Source of the DNA: Chloroflexota bacterium
GTDB taxonomy: Bacteria; Chloroflexota; Dehalococcoidia; Lucifugimonadales; Lucifugimonadaceae
Length of the DNA stretch: 64,000 nt
Direction of reading: 5' to 3'
Assembly (NCBI GenBank): GCA_013204555.1
Contig: JABMNO010000070.1
Location: 1 to 64,000, forward strand
Position numbers and translations under genes: made by a program. Shown one piece after another: positions 22,503-29,878 of the stretch. The notes below the pieces were generated by a model. The model was not told the DNA's origin. It ran no database searches and saw only the letters and a list, made by a program, of their open reading frames with translations. The first letter of the stretch is position 1; every line of letters begins with the position of its first letter.

Positions 22503-22550
22503 TGGAGGTGACTGATGGATTTGTGCCCGTGAATGGAGGTTTTACAAACC
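22503..22550 (-). repeat. Decayed tRNA-Cys 3' fragment, candidate att site
   Basis: These 48 bp align without gaps to 29070-29117, the anticodon arm through CCA end of tRNA-Cys, at 37 of 48 positions and in the same orientation. The 20 bp at 22531-22550 match at 19. The match stops exactly at the tRNA 3' end, as expected for a tRNA-derived attachment repeat left by an integrated element. Most of the mismatches in the T-arm part are transitions or clustered, as in decay. Confidence 0.7.
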
Positions 22551-22792
22551 CGTCTCTTTCTTAAACGGGGATTGTAAACACTTCACCTGATTTCCGGGCA
22601 GATACACCACCAATCGCCAGGAAGATTAGGCTGAGAAATATCACGACCCGAGAACACGTCACGATTGAATCGATAACGCCGCTTCCGGTTTTTCTGACTT
22701 CGAGGTGGTCGGTTCTGGAACAAGGCCGGATGCTTACCTTCAACTATCATGTTCGGCACTATGATTCGGCCATCATCAAGGCGTGAAGCTTC
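22551..22792. other. Gene-free left edge of the island
   Basis: Together with the att-like repeat this makes a 357-bp gap between the MFS gene and the NTF2-like gene. A 60-codon minus-strand frame is open here but has no ribosome site or recognisable product. Nothing else is seen. Confidence 0.5.
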
Positions 22793-23167
22793 ATGGATAT
22801 GAGCGACCGGGACTTCGATGATCTCAGACAGCTTGAGGAAGGACTCTGGCGATCCGACGTTCGTTTCAACATCCAGCGAATGGAAGAAGTGCTCGCTCCC
22901 GATTTCTTCGAGTTCGGCAGATCATCTCGGACGTATTCCCGAGCGGAGACGCTAGCGGTTCCTGCTCAGGAAATCGACGCCGTAATTCCATTGCGAGACT
23001 TCAAAGTTCGTCCACTGAATCCAGACGTTGCGCAGGTCACATACGAATCTGAAGCCACTTACCCCAGCGGCAAACAGCGAGCACTACGCAGTTCAATCTG
23101 GATACGAAGTTCGTCTGGGTGGCGGCTGATATTCCATCAAGGCACGCCGATACCTGATTCTGCGTGA
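22793..23167 (+). CDS. NTF2-like/DUF4440 family protein
   Basis: 124 residues of the SnoaL/DUF4440 fold: N-terminal helices (LRQLEEGLWRSDVRFNIQRM), MEEVLAPDFFEFGRSSRTYSR, TYESEATYP, and the closing strand GWRLIFHQGTP. These cytosolic cone-shaped proteins bind small molecules; the specific role is unknown. The gene ends in GTGA, and the next frame opens with that GTG. Confidence 0.82.
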   Translation: MDMSDRDFDDLRQLEEGLWRSDVRFNIQRMEEVLAPDFFEFGRSSRTYSRAETLAVPAQEIDAVIPLRDFKVRPLNPDVAQVTYESEATYPSGKQRALRSSIWIRSSSGWRLIFHQGTPIPDSA

Positions 23168-24447
23168 GGGGCAGTTTGCGCAACGGGAGTTCATGCGGGC
23201 CGTTGGCTCCACTGGCTGAAGGGGTCGCCTCGATAGGCAATCAACAATACGTTGAGCTGAAGCGCGGATTCATTCAATACCCGCAGATATGGGTAGTCAC
23301 CGTTGCCCCGCCAGGGGCCGCAAAGTCTCCGACGGATGATGCCGCTCGCGGACCATTGGATGAGCTTCAAGCAATAGCAATGAGTGTGTACTAACTGCAA
23401 CAAGATCAACCCCGCAGCAACCTTCAAATCTGGAAGGATTCGCATGGTGAGGAACGCAGCTCAGCACCCGAAGCGCCTGAGTTGGACACTTCTATTCCAC
23501 AGACACCACGATTGAAGGCATAAGCCGCATCGTCAAAGGATCATGTGGTGTGGCCCTCTCGCGATGAATTAATTGGGTGGGTCAATTCAATGGACGCCCA
23601 TAAAGATGGACCGCAAGATGAGCAACTCCGTGTTTATTCAGCATCCCGTGATATGCGTCACAGGGGTGTTCAGCCTGACGTGATGAGCGAACTGGCCGTT
23701 GAAGCCGGTCGACGCGATGGATTCCTGGAGCGAATCTTATGGGATGTCCCGGCTGTCAAACCCGCTCGATGATCGGATGCCGAAATATCAATTGAAGCCA
23801 GCCAAGACCTTCTGAGCTTGATTCGCCGCCTCCGTCATGCCGAAAGCAGCACGTTACCCGTCCGGATAAGCGCCAACGGTCACGAACTGATGAAGTCTTG
23901 GTTCAACAAGAATCAGAGCATTACGGCGGAAATGAATGGCTTGATGGCGGGCGTGTACGCCAAGATGCCGCTTCAGCTCGCTCGCATCTCCCTCATCATC
24001 CATTGCTTGAACTATCCAGATGATCCTTCGTCACAGCAGATCTCCGCAGAGACCATGGCTCTAGCAATAGAACTGACCGAGTACTTTCGTGGTTAAGCCG
24101 GTATTGCATTGAGTTTGATTGGTGCAGGCCCACGGTATAGGGGTAGCGGAACTACAGCGCGGGTCTATCGAATTCTTAGTGTGGCAGATGGCGATTGATG
24201 CAATCGATCAAAGTTGCACAAGGACCTGGGTGGACATGTTCCGGGTAAAGAAATTAGCGATTCTCTTATCGAACTTGAGGCGTCGTTGTTGGCAGAGAAA
24301 CGTAAGCCAGAATCAGGTGAAGCAGGTGGCCGCCGCGGTGAGGAGTGGCGGATAACTATTAGCGAACTAACCGAATTAACCGAAGAAACGTATTGGGAGT
24401 CAGCCGGACAAACCGAAAATGAAGGTGTAAAGGAGGTCACGATATGA
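23164..24447 (+). pseudogene. DUF3987 primase/helicase-like gene, broken
   Basis: Fragments in order match the DUF3987 family of element-encoded replication ATPases: IGNQQYVELKRGF with P-loop-like VAPPGAAKSP; then DTTIEGISRIVKGSCGVALS; DELIGWVNSMDAHKDG; GVQPDVMSELAVEAGRRDGF; GLMAGVYAKMPLQLARISL; and the C-terminal winged-helix part LHKDLGGHVPGKEISDSL. Breaks seen: a stop at 23392-23394, frame changes around 23500-23565, a TGA at 23770-23772 in place of an expected Trp codon, TAA 24094-24096 and TGA 24196-24198, plus an internal deletion. The last segment still overlaps the next start by ATGA. Confidence 0.75.
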
Positions 24448-24917
24448 GTGCTGCCGATCTCTTGGAGCGTCTGGATAATCGGGGGGTGCGCGTCTCTTTA
24501 GATGGCGCTGATCTGCGCCTACGAGGCCCCGCTAAAGTCCTCACCTCCGATCTCACCGATGAGATTCGCTTGGTGAAGTCAGAAATGATCCACCTACTGC
24601 TTGCCGATTCCGAGTCCCTGGAGTCACCGCCCCCCGAAGATGGAGATCAAAACCATCTGGCAATTGCTAGCTATTTGGAGAAAGCCGTTCAGATCCAGAT
24701 TTGGTTGACTGACCACGTTGTTGAGCACCTGGCGTTGGAACCGTCTAGCTCGGCCCAGTGGATGAGCACAGTTGTTGAGTTCGACATTATTGAGCGCCAC
24801 ATTCTTCGTGAATCTCTTCGTTTCGACGGATGTATTCACGCAGACGGTATTTGCCCAAGTACCGCTCAGGTGGCTTGCACTTACTGCTTTGAGTCGGGCA
24901 AGTGGCGGGAATTTTGA
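24444..24917 (+). CDS. TubC N-terminal domain-like protein of mobile element
   Basis: 157 residues. The first 50 (LLERLDNRGVRVSLDGADLRLRGPAKVL...) resemble the TubC_N docking fold often found beside DUF3987 genes. The C-terminal part has four Cys and a His (GCIHADGICPS..., VACTYC), a possible zinc site. ATGA overlap with the pseudogene upstream shows an ancestral operon. Function unknown. Confidence 0.6.
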   Translation: MSAADLLERLDNRGVRVSLDGADLRLRGPAKVLTSDLTDEIRLVKSEMIHLLLADSESLESPPPEDGDQNHLAIASYLEKAVQIQIWLTDHVVEHLALEPSSSAQWMSTVVEFDIIERHILRESLRFDGCIHADGICPSTAQVACTYCFESGKWREF

Positions 24918-24918
24918 G

Positions 24919-25134
24919 ATGGGACGCATAGCAGTCATCCCCGCGAACTTCGTGCAAGCGATAACGCAACGTTACAAGTCTGGCGAAGGCTTCAGGGCAC
25001 TCAGCAATTACCTCAAGCGTTGCGGTATTGACGCTAGTCCCGCTTCCTGCCGTCGAGCGATGATGGGCTTGCCACCGTACGAGTACCCTCTAGATTCCAC
25101 CTCCAATATTCGCGGAGATCAATATATGCGGTGA
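24919..25134 (+). CDS. Small helix-turn-helix protein of mobile element
   Basis: 71 residues. IAVIPANFVQAITQRYKSGEGFRALSNYLKR followed by a second helix pair ending AMMGLPPYEYP looks like a resolvase-type HTH. Its ATG follows the previous stop by one base. Such short proteins accompany DUF3987 genes in integrative elements; regulation or recombination accessory functions are plausible but unproven. Confidence 0.5.
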   Translation: MGRIAVIPANFVQAITQRYKSGEGFRALSNYLKRCGIDASPASCRRAMMGLPPYEYPLDSTSNIRGDQYMR

Positions 25135-25230
25135 AATGCAGAAACTCCTCGGACTCGAACGTGACTCTCCTCGGCGGTGTCCGTTCGTCGCACGAAACGC
25201 GTACCGGACCTGGGGCATCCTCATCACTCC

Positions 25231-25896
25231 TCATTTTTCGAAAACGACCCCACCCCAGGATAGTTTCGGTTCGAGCCACCAGACCGAACCATCTGAATGT
25301 CGAAGTTTCGCGAACCGCTGACCACAGATCCATTCCTCAAAAGTAAGAACGACTCCCACACCAATTTGCCGACGCTTCCCCGCCGCGATACAGTCTGCGA
25401 CCGATTCTCTGGCAGTGATTTCTCTCATTATCAATACCGCGTCGCCAGCGGCGTATGCCTGTGGAATGGCGGTCGGCGTTGCCGTCGGAGTCGGAACTGG
25501 TGTCGGGGTGGGGCGTGGTATCGCCGTTTGGTAAATCCGAGTACCGTTGCGCACCCGCGCTGACGGCCTGCCATCAGCGAACACTTGGTATACCCAGTTT
25601 TCGGAAGTTACTTCTACTTCCCAAATGCCACCACCTATCGACGTGGCAGGCCATGCACCGGTTCCGAGCCTTACCGGAACGCGTTCACGTTTGATGAGAG
25701 TCGGATTAGTCAGTTGGGCAATTTTTGACTGATAGATCTCAACTTGATCTCGATATATTTCTTCTGCGAGCTGAGCTTTGGCTTGGTGTTCACCAATAGC
25801 GGGGCCATCATCCCCGGCGCATGCAGAAACTATCGCGACGAGCCAGACCGCCGCGAAAAGATTGATAGCGGAATGCCGGTTCCATCTGGTGGTCAT
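25231..25896 (-). CDS. Lipoprotein with Thr/Pro linker, unknown function
   Basis: 221 residues. Signal with lipobox VSAC (Cys about residue 27), a helical segment, a globular domain with GGGIWEVEV and WVYQVF, a Pro/Thr linker (PRPTPTPVPTPTATPTAIP), and a C-terminal domain with two Cys (ADCIAAG, EWICGQRF) ending in W-rich strands, possibly SH3-like. No family named. A 52-codon frame ends 11 bp upstream on the same strand. Confidence 0.65.
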   Translation of the reverse strand: MTTRWNRHSAINLFAAVWLVAIVSACAGDDGPAIGEHQAKAQLAEEIYRDQVEIYQSKIAQLTNPTLIKRERVPVRLGTGAWPATSIGGGIWEVEVTSENWVYQVFADGRPSARVRNGTRIYQTAIPRPTPTPVPTPTATPTAIPQAYAAGDAVLIMREITARESVADCIAAGKRRQIGVGVVLTFEEWICGQRFAKLRHSDGSVWWLEPKLSWGGVVFEK

Positions 25897-25907
25897 ATCA
25901 TTTGCAC

Positions 25908-26066
25908 CTAGTTCCTCGCCATGTCCTCTGCCTTCGAGACAATCCCCTCATAGTTCGTTCTCGGCGCCGTGTATCCCAGCGGCACGTTTTGCAAGAGATC
26001 AGCTATCCACTTCCTAGCTGGGTGTGGGCGGAGCCGATGCTTGAATGTGGGACCGTACGCCGTCAT
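25908..26066 (-). CDS. Possible 52-residue hypothetical protein
   Basis: A short frame, ATG 26066 to TAG, encodes RLRPHPARKWIADLLQNVPL and GYTAPRTNYEGIVSKAEDMA. The mixed hydrophobic/charged pattern looks protein-like and it sits directly before the lipoprotein gene. It could also be the 3' remnant of a larger gene. No function suggested. The remaining stretch 26067-26362 shows nothing recognisable. Confidence 0.35.
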   Translation of the reverse strand: MTAYGPTFKHRLRPHPARKWIADLLQNVPLGYTAPRTNYEGIVSKAEDMARN

Positions 26067-26362
26067 CGTGATCTGCACATCAGAGATGCACCCGCAGGAA
26101 GCTTATGACCATCTCACCCAAGAAGGGTTCAGCGGGCGCGTGGTGACGACATGAGTCCGAGCGTTGATTTCTCACTCCAACTCGGATTGGCGGTATAGCT
26201 GCGATCTCATCTCCCTCCAAATCGTTGAATCACTGATAGGACTCACGGCCGCCATTGCAAAAAGAGACTCGGTTTGATTCCACTCTTCGCCGTCGGGATC
26301 AAGCGCATAAGTTACGACCACCCGCGCTCGGAGCCGATGGTACTGCTCAGATGCGGCGCTCG

Positions 26363-26776
26363 TCAGCCATTGGCCGTCGCGCTCAATTGACGCGGGAAAT
26401 CGTGCTCGAAAGGGTTTTCCGGGCTAATGTCAGTCACAGTGAAGTCTTCAACCAAAAATCTGGGGCTGGGATCGAGCGCGTCATACGGGCCATCTCCGAA
26501 GCCAAATGTCACCTTGGTGAGTACATCAAATGCCGTTGTATTACCGACGTTGCGAAGAGTGATTGTCATTATCGGCGACCAACCGCCGACTGTCGGCCTT
26601 ACTCGTGCGCGATTTCGGCGAGCTTCCGCGGTTGCCGCTCGAGCCGCATCGCCCACCGCCTCAGCGGACCGGCGTGTCTCGCGAAGGGTCCAGATTTGAG
26701 CGAAGAGGACAAACACGAAGGTCACGAGTGTCGCAGTCGACACCCAAAAGATAGCCCAATCGAGCGTGGTATCCAT
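26363..26776 (-). CDS. Single-pass membrane protein, unknown function
   Basis: 137 residues. TM segment FWVSTATLVTFVFVLFAQIW (about 10-29), a basic Ala/Arg-rich helix (about 32-60), then a beta-rich cytosolic domain (MTITLRNVGNTTAFDV). This resembles bacterial proteins with one N-terminal TM and an Ig-like domain seen near defence or phage genes, but no family can be fixed. Confidence 0.5.
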   Translation of the reverse strand: MDTTLDWAIFWVSTATLVTFVFVLFAQIWTLRETRRSAEAVGDAARAATAEARRNRARVRPTVGGWSPIMTITLRNVGNTTAFDVLTKVTFGFGDGPYDALDPSPRFLVEDFTVTDISPENPFEHDFPRQLSATANG

Positions 26777-26857
26777 GTCGGTGATCTTAGCCCATCCGTA
26801 GAGTCCAGTGCGTGCTCTATTTAGAGAAGTATCCCGCTGTCTGCAGGCGCGATGCCA

Positions 26858-27091
26858 TCAAACCGGCTCCCGCACGATATGAACCCAGCATTCACCATTG
26901 GGAAGCAGGTACACCTGCCCGCCCTCACCTGGAGCGAGTCGACTGTTCTTTAGATCCTCGGCTGACACGCCGTGAGCGTTAATCGCATGCTCGCCCATTC
27001 GTGCCAATCTGTCGCCACGGTACTCGAATCCGTTCCGATTGGGCTTACACAGGAGACAACGGACGCTAGCGGGTAAATCTTTTCGGACCAT
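26858..27091 (-). CDS. Small zinc-finger-like protein
   Basis: 77 residues. CLLCKPNRNGF followed by GDRLARMGEHAINAH gives a C-x2-C...H-x4-H pattern typical of a small zinc finger or Zn ribbon. No membrane segment. It is short and AT-balanced like its neighbours on the island. Function unknown; DNA or protein binding is possible. Confidence 0.5.
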   Translation of the reverse strand: MVRKDLPASVRCLLCKPNRNGFEYRGDRLARMGEHAINAHGVSAEDLKNSRLAPGEGGQVYLLPNGECWVHIVREPV

Positions 27092-27283
27092 CCGATGATC
27101 CTGTCACGGGACGCCCTAAACCCAAACGAATCATTGGCGGGCGAGCCAATCAAGATGTGCGGCAGTACCCCACGCGGTAGCCCAAGGGGTATAACTGAAG
27201 GACTAAACGGCTAGATGAGCGGGGCCACTCCTAGGTACCCCGCATCGTGGCTCCTCCTGCTCTCCGGCCCTCTTATCGCGGCA

Positions 27284-27318
27284 GCCACACACGCCCGCGC
27301 CACGCGTGCGTGTGTGGC
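27284..27318 (-). terminator. Hairpin downstream of pentapeptide channel gene
   Basis: GCCACACACGC and GCGTGTGTGGC form an 11-bp perfect stem 24 bp past the stop of the minus-strand gene at 27342. No T-run follows, so termination is uncertain. Confidence 0.4.
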
Positions 27319-27341
27319 TATCAAGGTATAAACCAAGCCGT

Positions 27342-28658
27342 CTAACGCATCCACTTTCGAGTGGCTGTAACAAGGAATAAGGCCAGGGTTGTTACACCGA
27401 CGAATGACTCGAGAACTCCTAGGTACCTTGTCCAACCAGTCGGCCGAGTGACCCACTCCCCGTATCCGAGTGCGCTGAATGAGACGCCAGAGAAATAGAG
27501 GGCTCTGGCAGATTGTTTGATAAATTCGACTGCTCCATCGAAAGAAACATCAATCCCATGCCACTCGTAGAACCAAACTGAAAACAGGACAATAAATAGT
27601 GCAGCGCCGAGCAGAACACGTAATGGTCGCTCACCGTAGCCAAAAACGTATCTCGCGAACTGTGCGGTCAATATGGGTTGTACATTGCTGCGGAATTTAC
27701 CGCGCGCTCCGGCCCTTGCAACGTTGATCGTAACGCGTCCGGCATTCGCGCCACGAGGGCTAATCTCCGCGGTCAATTGTTTACGATAGGCTTCCTCCTC
27801 TCGATAGTGGAACTCACCGGCCAAACTCCGATCTCCCGCAGTTGTATGCGCACGAGTCAACTCTCGGTAGACGATCACCGACTTCTGATATTCGCCTACT
27901 GATTCTTGCTTGACAACAAACTTTTCGTCCCACTGAATTCCGGTCAAGAAGGTGGTATCAAAATGTGTCCCAGATAAGTCTGCACCCGCCATGCATGAAT
28001 CCCGCAAATCGACGTGGGTGGTCTTTACATTGGTGAATTGCGCAGCGGAAAAATCACAGTCTGAGGCCACAGCATCGCGTAGATCAACCCTCTCCAGCAC
28101 AGCACCTCGAAAACTTGCATTGGGCAAGTGAGCTTCCCTGAAATCTGCCCAGTGAAGTTTCGAATTATCGAACTCGACGTATCGGAGGTCCGCCCGCCGA
28201 AAATTGGCGTGTGTTGCGATCGTGCTACGGAATCCCGTTGGGACTATTTCGTGGTTCAGAATCGAGGGCTTACCCTCAGCCCAGTCCTGTAATACCGGGC
28301 CTGTTGCAAGGTCTCCTGCCGTCAAAGGGGAATCGCCATTTAGCACGATGAGAGGAAACATGATCGCACGCTCAAGTACGGCTCCTTGGAGATAACATCC
28401 CGACATGTCAAGACCTCTGAGATCAATGCCTGTCATATCGAGTCCACCGAGGCGTAATAGGTCTGCCACACCACCGTTCGCTTCGATGAGTTTCTCCAAG
28501 GTCACCCTATCGAGTGGCATCAACTGTTTGAGGTTCCCCGTATCGGCGTCACGTGCGTGAATGCCGCCGTCAAGCAAGATGTGCTCATAGTCCATTGGGT
28601 TGATGTAAATATCCGAACCGCCAGATCGCTTTTCGCGGTCTCTCTTCCCGAAAATCAT
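27342..28658 (-). CDS. Pentapeptide-repeat protein fused to K+-channel-like pore
   Basis: 438 residues. An N-terminal helical part is followed by pentapeptide-type repeats in two blocks (about 75-105, LGGLDMTGIDLRGLDMSGC, and about 155-235, FRRADLRYVEFDNSKLHWAD). A linker leads to a C-terminal Ion_trans_2-type pore: TM RVLLGAALFIVLFSVWFYEW, pore helix ALYFSGVSFSALGYGEW with GYG selectivity-filter residues, and a last TM. It is a probable two-TM ion channel gated by a cytosolic beta-helix. It is the longest intact gene of the island. Confidence 0.85.
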   Translation of the reverse strand: MIFGKRDREKRSGGSDIYINPMDYEHILLDGGIHARDADTGNLKQLMPLDRVTLEKLIEANGGVADLLRLGGLDMTGIDLRGLDMSGCYLQGAVLERAIMFPLIVLNGDSPLTAGDLATGPVLQDWAEGKPSILNHEIVPTGFRSTIATHANFRRADLRYVEFDNSKLHWADFREAHLPNASFRGAVLERVDLRDAVASDCDFSAAQFTNVKTTHVDLRDSCMAGADLSGTHFDTTFLTGIQWDEKFVVKQESVGEYQKSVIVYRELTRAHTTAGDRSLAGEFHYREEEAYRKQLTAEISPRGANAGRVTINVARAGARGKFRSNVQPILTAQFARYVFGYGERPLRVLLGAALFIVLFSVWFYEWHGIDVSFDGAVEFIKQSARALYFSGVSFSALGYGEWVTRPTGWTRYLGVLESFVGVTTLALFLVTATRKWMR

Positions 28659-29022
28659 CTAGTTTCTCCATCGGACTGATCGTGCAGGCCCCACTCCATA
28701 GAGCAGATGGTCAACCCGCCGCTGTACACGCTCAGAAGGCATAGTGCCGGGCATGATAAGCGAAGCCAAGCTCTGAAACCTATTTCGGTGGTCGCTGCAG
28801 CGCGTATAAACGTGGACTCATATTTGGCCCAGGATTATCCGCGAGTATCTACCCACTAATCATTCGAACCGTAGGGGGGAACGCTTCATTAAACAACGAC
28901 CAGCGAACTGGCTCATACGGCGCTCTTACCTTCTTCGGATTGAAGTGAGGTCACCCCGAGGATCGTCTCGATTCAAGTTCTCCCTTGGTCAAATTGTTGG
29001 TCAAACCAAGATTTCCTTAATG
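28659..29022. other. Gene-free right part of island
   Basis: No convincing gene is seen in this stretch between the channel gene and the tRNA terminator. An integrase gene would be expected next to the tRNA in an active element; none is recognisable. Confidence 0.5.
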
Positions 29023-29049
29023 AAAAAGGCCCCAGATATGGGGCCTTTT
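29023..29049 (-). terminator. Terminator of tRNA operon
   Basis: AAAAGGCCCC, a six-base loop, then GGGGCCTTTT. On the minus strand the stem is followed by a T-run, 21 bp past the CCA end of tRNA-Cys. Confidence 0.85.
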
Positions 29050-29069
29050 CTCAATACGAATCAAGTATA

Positions 29070-29146
29070 TGGAGGCGACGGGCGGATTCGAACCGCCGAA
29101 TGGAGGTTTTGCAAACCTCTGCCTTAGGCCACTTGGCTACGTCGCC
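29070..29146 (-). tRNA. tRNA-Cys (anticodon GCA)
   Basis: 77 nt with encoded CCA. Acceptor GGCGACG/CGTCGCC, T-arm GGCGGTTCGAATCCGCC, anticodon loop in GGTTTGCAAAACC. Its 3' 48 bp are duplicated in degenerate form at 22503-22550. Last of three tRNA genes. Confidence 0.95.
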
Positions 29147-29377: not shown

Positions 29378-29534
29378 TCGACGCGATGAGTCGGCCCTCA
29401 TCCACCTGACACCGTTGTTCAAAAAGCTACCGTAGGCAGGGATGCCCACGCTACGTCAACGGGAGACGGGTGAATTCAGACACAACACCAACTTGAATCT
29501 TATCTCAGCATCAAACGCCCATACAACATAGAGC

Positions 29535-29878
29535 TGAGGTGGTCCCGTTTGTCTGAACAGCGTCGGCCTGTGTGATAAGTGGAATCGTCTGCCGTGGATT
29601 AGGCCGCTGTGGGTGCTGGCAGCGGTCTGTCGTACAACTGGTCCAGAGTCATTCTGCCGAGGCTCGAATGGGGCCTTCTCGCGTTGTAGAACTCGAAATA
29701 CTGCCCGCGTTCAGCTCTGGCCTCTGACACCGATTCGTAAGCGTTCAGGTGCACCTCTCTTCGGCTGGCTCAGGACAACCCCTCGTCATTTTTCGCTCCT
29801 GATTCTAGAGGCGCCATGATGCCTAACTCAGGCAACGATTCCACTTATCCCCCTGTTCAGTTATCCGGAGCCACCTCA
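29535..29878 (-). mobile_element. IS3-family insertion sequence remnant
   Basis: A 344-bp element with ends TGAGGTGG...CCACCTCA. Inner inverted repeats are CTGAACAG plus GATAAGTGGAATCGT on the left (29553-29588) and ACGATTCCACTTATC plus CTGTTCAG on the right (29835-29860). Between them only the C-terminal 52 codons of the transposase remain. TG..CA termini fit the IS3 family. Confidence 0.75.
29599..29757 (-). pseudogene. IS3-family transposase OrfB, C-terminal fragment
   Basis: The frame encodes EVHLNAYESVSEARAERGQ then FEFYNARRPHSSLGRMT, the last conserved block of DDE (IS3/rve) transposases, and stops at TAA 29599-29601. The rest of the gene, including the catalytic D and D, is missing. 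Confidence 0.85.

Follow-up and report, generated by a model that had tools for sequence, protein, structure and literature searches.

A probable decayed integrative element at a tRNA-Cys gene of a Chloroflexota bacterium, with relatives in other tRNA genes

Introduction

A stretch of 6.6 kb in the genome of a Chloroflexota bacterium, located within the 64-kb window (that is, the whole stretch of DNA that was analysed), is very probably the residue of an integrative element that was targeted to a tRNA-Cys gene and has since decayed. tRNA-targeted integration followed by decay had been proposed for this region in a preliminary description, and the proposal has gained support from two sides: relatives have been found that carry the same replication genes together with tyrosine integrases in tRNA sites, and the window shares gene order and orientation with the closest of them. 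The window itself holds a decayed tRNA-Cys genomic island of an ordinary, known kind (Table 1). Of more interest as a lead are the TubC_N-primase elements found more widely in SAR202, a clade of marine bacteria; the island draws attention to a group of tRNA-targeting elements there, and little on mobile islands of this clade was found in the open-access literature.

Table 1. Features of the island (coordinates in the window) and related loci carrying a tRNA gene and a tyrosine integrase
Feature	Position	Strand	Evidence or content
Displaced 3' fragment of tRNA-Cys (tRNA nt 30-77), putative distal att remnant	22503-22550	-	37/48, ends at CCA
Inner flank of the att remnant: decayed tRNA similarity, then TGTAAACACTTCA (22573-22585)	22551-22592		Common to the tRNA-Cys fragment of G002
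DUF4440 ORF between att remnant and truncated primase; cargo or later insertion	22793-23167	+	PF14534, E 4e-16
DUF3987 primase-helicase pseudogene	23212-24444	+	tblastn, in-frame stops
Intact gene of a 157-aa TubC_N-domain protein, putative primase partner	24444-24917	+	PF18563, E 4e-8
Small ORF after TubC_N, previously labelled small HTH	24920-25134	+	ORF
Putative lipoprotein/hypothetical protein, cargo	25231-25896	-	ORF, no significant family match
Small hypothetical membrane-anchored protein, cargo	26363-26776	-	ORF, no significant family match
438-aa pentapeptide-repeat protein with C-terminal Ion_trans_2, cargo	27342-28658	-	PF00805, E 8e-24; PF07885, E 4e-7
5' remnant of kinase-like gene (MPSERVQRR..., 27 codons, then stop)	28659-28742	-	Gene present elsewhere in genome
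Intact tRNA-Cys(GCA), putatively regenerated proximal att side	29070-29146	-	ARAGORN
G014 element in tRNA-Ala(TGC), apparently intact	L104 6710-18783		Tyrosine integrase, HTH_17 gene, primase-TubC_N
G140 element in tRNA-Thr(CGT), 9.4 kb			Integrase, primase-TubC_N; layout similar to G014 element
G037 locus at tRNA-Gly(TCC)			Integrase (recognised by eye from sequence), adjoining primase-TubC_N
G151 locus at tRNA-Arg(CCT)			Integrase, adjoining primase-TubC_N

A displaced 3' copy of tRNA-Cys

The intact tRNA-Cys(GCA) is adjoined by tRNA-Leu(GAG) and tRNA-Trp, as detected by ARAGORN. On its 3' side, and in unchanged orientation, lies a fragment that is aligned without gaps to positions 29070-29117 with 37 identities, and the earlier claim of a repeat in the same orientation ending exactly at the CCA was borne out by this alignment. 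The repeated part extends from the anticodon arm to the CCA; the match starts at the base complementary to the final A of the encoded CCA, and on the outer side the similarity stops there. When both strands of the window were scanned, the next-best match outside tRNA genes reached 28/48.

This arrangement corresponds to the signature on which Islander is based, namely an intact tDNA accompanied by a displaced fragment, usually of the 3' part, and a crossover that in many cases has the anticodon loop at its centre (PMC4383910). Like the anticodon-centred class A islands, the island has an intact tRNA at one end and a downstream 3' fragment in the same orientation that ends at the gene end. Unlike Islander islands it has no integrase gene inside, so that the Islander integrase filter would reject it (PMC4383910), as a standard island finder would also discard it, and it is therefore filed as a decayed and not as an active island. 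In fact, no PF00589 or PF00239 recombinase sequence was found on contig C62 with stops read through (both occur elsewhere in the genome), and the integrases of G014 and G037 gave no significant match to the island. This search for an integrase had been suggested beforehand, and its negative outcome is as expected for a fossil; nevertheless, the lack of any integrase remnant counts against the reading of the island as an integrated element. Having neither a tyrosine nor a serine recombinase, the island is probably locked in place. Its GC content (53.6%, compared with 55-57% in the flanks) is so close to that of its surroundings as to be uninformative on foreign origin.

The primase-TubC_N pair and its relatives

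The DUF3987 pseudogene corresponds to amino acids 378-810 of a Prim-Pol/PriCT_1/DUF3987 protein of G014 (53% identity in 438 columns, E 1e-134 by tblastn), and is interrupted by five in-frame stops, two TGA and three TAA, at 23392, 23521, 23770, 24094, and 24196. The alignment begins at amino acid 378 of the G014 protein, and the N-terminal Prim-Pol domain is absent from the window copy; stretches from the middle of the protein are missing as well, and the remainder is collinear with the G014 primase. In a Pfam search of the window ORFs, DUF3987 was matched by two separate pieces (E 1e-8 and 2e-10). The pseudogene is the sole DUF3987 sequence of the genome, and no relative of this stretch was found in the viral contigs searched. 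The TubC_N gene directly abuts the end of the pseudogene, and its product is 42% identical over 150 columns to that of the gene following the G014 primase; the succession of a primase-helicase gene and a TubC_N gene, typical of the G014-type element, is present here as a pseudogene followed by an intact gene. The open TubC_N frame is not by itself evidence of selection. With respect to the element-type genes named in the preliminary description, DUF3987 and TubC_N were recovered by Pfam, and the "small HTH" label of the ORF downstream was left unconfirmed, this ORF having no Pfam or PHROG match.

The genome G014 corresponds to Candidatus Lucifugimonas marina JH1073 (its sequence is found in CP046147 at 100% identity), a member of the SAR202 cluster, and the genome of the window is grouped in the same family. 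TubC_N is uncommon in the order, with matches in 12 of 250 genomes, at 14 places. Two of these places (G092 and G237) are near contig ends and were left out of the neighbour count; at the other 12, window counted, the neighbour is primase-like according to its similarity to element primases or to PHROGs, although at G133, G223:C45, and one of the G037 loci (C47) the call is based on a weaker similarity or on appearance. In this order, TubC_N proteins are tied in this way to element primases. Four loci, those of G014, G037, G140, and G151, combine the pair with a tRNA gene and a tyrosine integrase (Table 1). In G014, the 3' part of the tRNA from nt 32, together with downstream bases, is repeated 12 kb away (94/97), and in G140 the 3' part from nt 31 is repeated 9.4 kb away (97.8% of 45 bp); no second copy of the tRNA part was found for G037 and G151 within the DNA compared.

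The closest counterpart of the island is the tRNA-Ala(TGC) element of JH1073, which has in common with it the primase-TubC_N pair, the order and orientation relative to the tRNA and att, and a repeat that starts at the anticodon loop. In G014 the tRNA and the cargo are followed, on the opposite strand, by TubC_N and the primase, and then by a Zn finger, the HTH_17 gene, a gene of 309 aa that overlaps the integrase, the integrase itself, a further gene, and the tRNA fragment; in the window the tRNA and the cargo are likewise followed by TubC_N and the primase on the opposite strand, and these by the DUF4440 ORF and the tRNA fragment. The JH1073 element thus differs from the island in having an integrase, an HTH_17 gene, a Zn finger, and a complete Prim-Pol domain, and in residing in a different tRNA, and this difference in layout would be explained by a loss from the primase N-terminus through the integrase. 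The strongly mutated att copy of the window is still recognisable once intact relatives supply the expected geometry.

By analogy with these relatives, an element encoding a tyrosine integrase would have entered the tRNA-Cys gene through recombination at its anticodon loop. The 3' half of a tRNA carried by the element would have restored the gene at 29070-29146, and the original 3' half would have been displaced 6.5 kb, to 22503-22550. The Prim-Pol/DUF3987 primase-helicase and the TubC_N protein would have formed the replication module of the element. A later deletion, from the distal att site to about codon 378 of the primase, would have taken away the integrase and the regulator together with the N-terminal part of the primase; the remaining primase would then have acquired its five stops, and the distal att fragment would have drifted to 77% identity. 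The element would now be fixed in place, and of its genes TubC_N remains intact next to some of the cargo. The sequence TTTGCAA is present in the anticodon loops of both tRNA-Cys(GCA) and tRNA-Ala(TGC), and we suggest that this common motif may let a related integrase use either tRNA.

Comparison with known systems

Integrated elements that encode Prim-Pol primases have been described, 14 of the 25 mapped ones being located in tRNA genes, according to the available text of Kazlauskas et al. (2018; PMC5862659). In that text, as in the intact relative, the primase is fused to a DUF3987 helicase-like domain, unlike the window copy, which has lost the Prim-Pol domain; no mention of a TubC_N partner was found there for these elements. 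Another point of comparison is provided by the PICMI phage satellites, which resemble the intact relative in having a DUF3987 primase, an HTH_17 gene, and an integrase; unlike in PICMI, no Fis gene was recognised among the element genes scanned (PMC10803314). From the PICMI set (integrase, AlpA-type regulator, DUF3987 primase, and Fis), the window ORFs scanned keep the DUF3987 remnant only. In the G140 element, a terminase small subunit-like gene (L133 8957-9460; PF03592, E 8e-7; PHROG 51, E 3e-13) hints at a possible satellite lifestyle. Tentatively, and with rather less than even confidence, it may be proposed that integrative elements targeted to tRNA genes form an undescribed family in SAR202-type Chloroflexota, perhaps one of phage satellites (one member encodes this terminase small subunit-like protein), in which the primase would be regularly paired with a small TubC_N protein as a replication partner and not as a peptide-synthetase docking domain.

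Cargo and the right part of the island

The cargo of the JH1073 element is unlike that of the window and includes, at L104 8434-10688, a full-length candidate defence protein of type PDC-S02 (E 7e-123), as well as an HNH protein with a resemblance to restriction enzymes of type IV. Inside the same element, at L104 7807-7845, there is a 39-bp identical extra copy of part of the DNA downstream of the tRNA-Ala, which may mark an older or tandem insertion.

The genes at 25231-28658 of the window are not homologous to the G014 cargo, and some of them could have arrived separately. A history of nested events, in which the DUF3987-TubC_N element entered by the att fragment and cargo at 25231-28742 accreted separately beside the tRNA, from another element or through host rearrangement, would accommodate the intact minus-strand genes of the right part, unrelated to the G014 cargo, and the 5' remnant of a gene that the genome also carries at other places. 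We consider it rather unlikely, since cargo varies freely among related elements and no further tRNA-Cys fragment was found inside the island on either strand; it is in any case compatible with integration at tRNA-Cys followed by decay, and alters the origin of the right half only.

The first 12 or so codons of the truncated kinase-like gene (MPSERVQRRI/V...) and the DNA just upstream are common to several genes on contigs C35, C80, and C68 of the same genome, at least two of which encode kinase-like proteins. The 438-aa pentapeptide-repeat protein resembles HalA, the Hailong anti-phage effector, over a long stretch but weakly (NF051894, 19 bits, far below the cut-off of 250); no partner gene for it was recognised among the island ORFs examined, and a PADLOC defence search of the window cargo gave no match.

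The tRNA-Cys fragments in relatives

A genus mate, G002, has a better preserved 62-nt 3' fragment of tRNA-Cys, 94% identical to the window tRNA, which is adjoined by a nitroreductase-like gene (named by eye) and lies near the end of contig C157; of the putative element, 134 bp are left before this contig stops. If a 4-nt gap is allowed, the resemblance of the window fragment extends to about the end point of this longer one. In both genomes the fragment is followed by TGTAAACACTTCA, a pattern that was found in 2 of 76 family genomes (G000 and G002 only) and in none with the reversed control. The element-side flanks of the window and G002 reach a local score of 29 (shuffle maximum, 24), whereas the host-side flanks are unrelated (score 18; shuffle mean, 18.4). 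This same pattern would result from two insertions of related elements as well as from a single insertion with later rearrangement.

It might alternatively be argued that the 48-bp match is a tRNA-Cys pseudogene that arose when the tRNA cluster was duplicated or rearranged, the element genes being adjacent by coincidence. The surroundings of the tRNA are indeed rearranged in the genus, two family-conserved neighbours (of 408 and 117 aa) are missing here, and an IS-type transposase fragment, recognised by eye near 29600, is partly common to G003. Nevertheless, such an origin appears very improbable: the end points of the match are the CCA and the anticodon region, the latter as for the intact elements of G014 and G140; the G002 fragment is similar and has the same inner flank; and both the side and the orientation of the element genes are those expected. 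A chance match, which might be invoked given an identity of just 77% over 48 nt, is refuted to the point of being negligible, since none of 300 first-order Markov sequences of 64 kb, examined on either strand, exceeded 30/48 (mean of the best matches, 26.8) and the position, orientation, and end points of the repeat are as predicted; the statistical check suggested for the repeat at the outset, made here with simulated sequences, places it beyond chance.

An empty site, the lack of which likewise counts against integration, is not demonstrable in the relatives because these lack the MFS gene of the left flank: in genus mates there are just distant paralogues of about 30% identity, and in the relatives compared tRNA-Cys is on other contigs. 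Moreover, in genus mates the contigs that carry the tRNA are short or have been rearranged, and gene order on the 3' side of tRNA-Cys is not conserved across the genus.

Isolated 3' fragments of tRNA-Cys (44-47 bp, 93-98%) have also been found at G032:C59:7404-7450, G051:C32:7663-7706, and G051:C8:4246-4289, which suggests that tRNA-Cys is a recurrent insertion target; no element features were seen by eye in the genes near these three fragments. To the right of tRNA-Trp, from 29378 onward, the window lacks the 408-aa and 117-aa genes that in most of the relatives compared accompany the Trp-Leu-Cys tRNA cluster, and therefore this other side of the cluster has been rearranged as well. The IS-type remnant is located at about 29526-29700 on the minus strand and reads, by eye, as the C-terminal end of a transposase; 144 bp of it are common to contig C142 of G003, where they lie beside the tRNA cluster of that genome.
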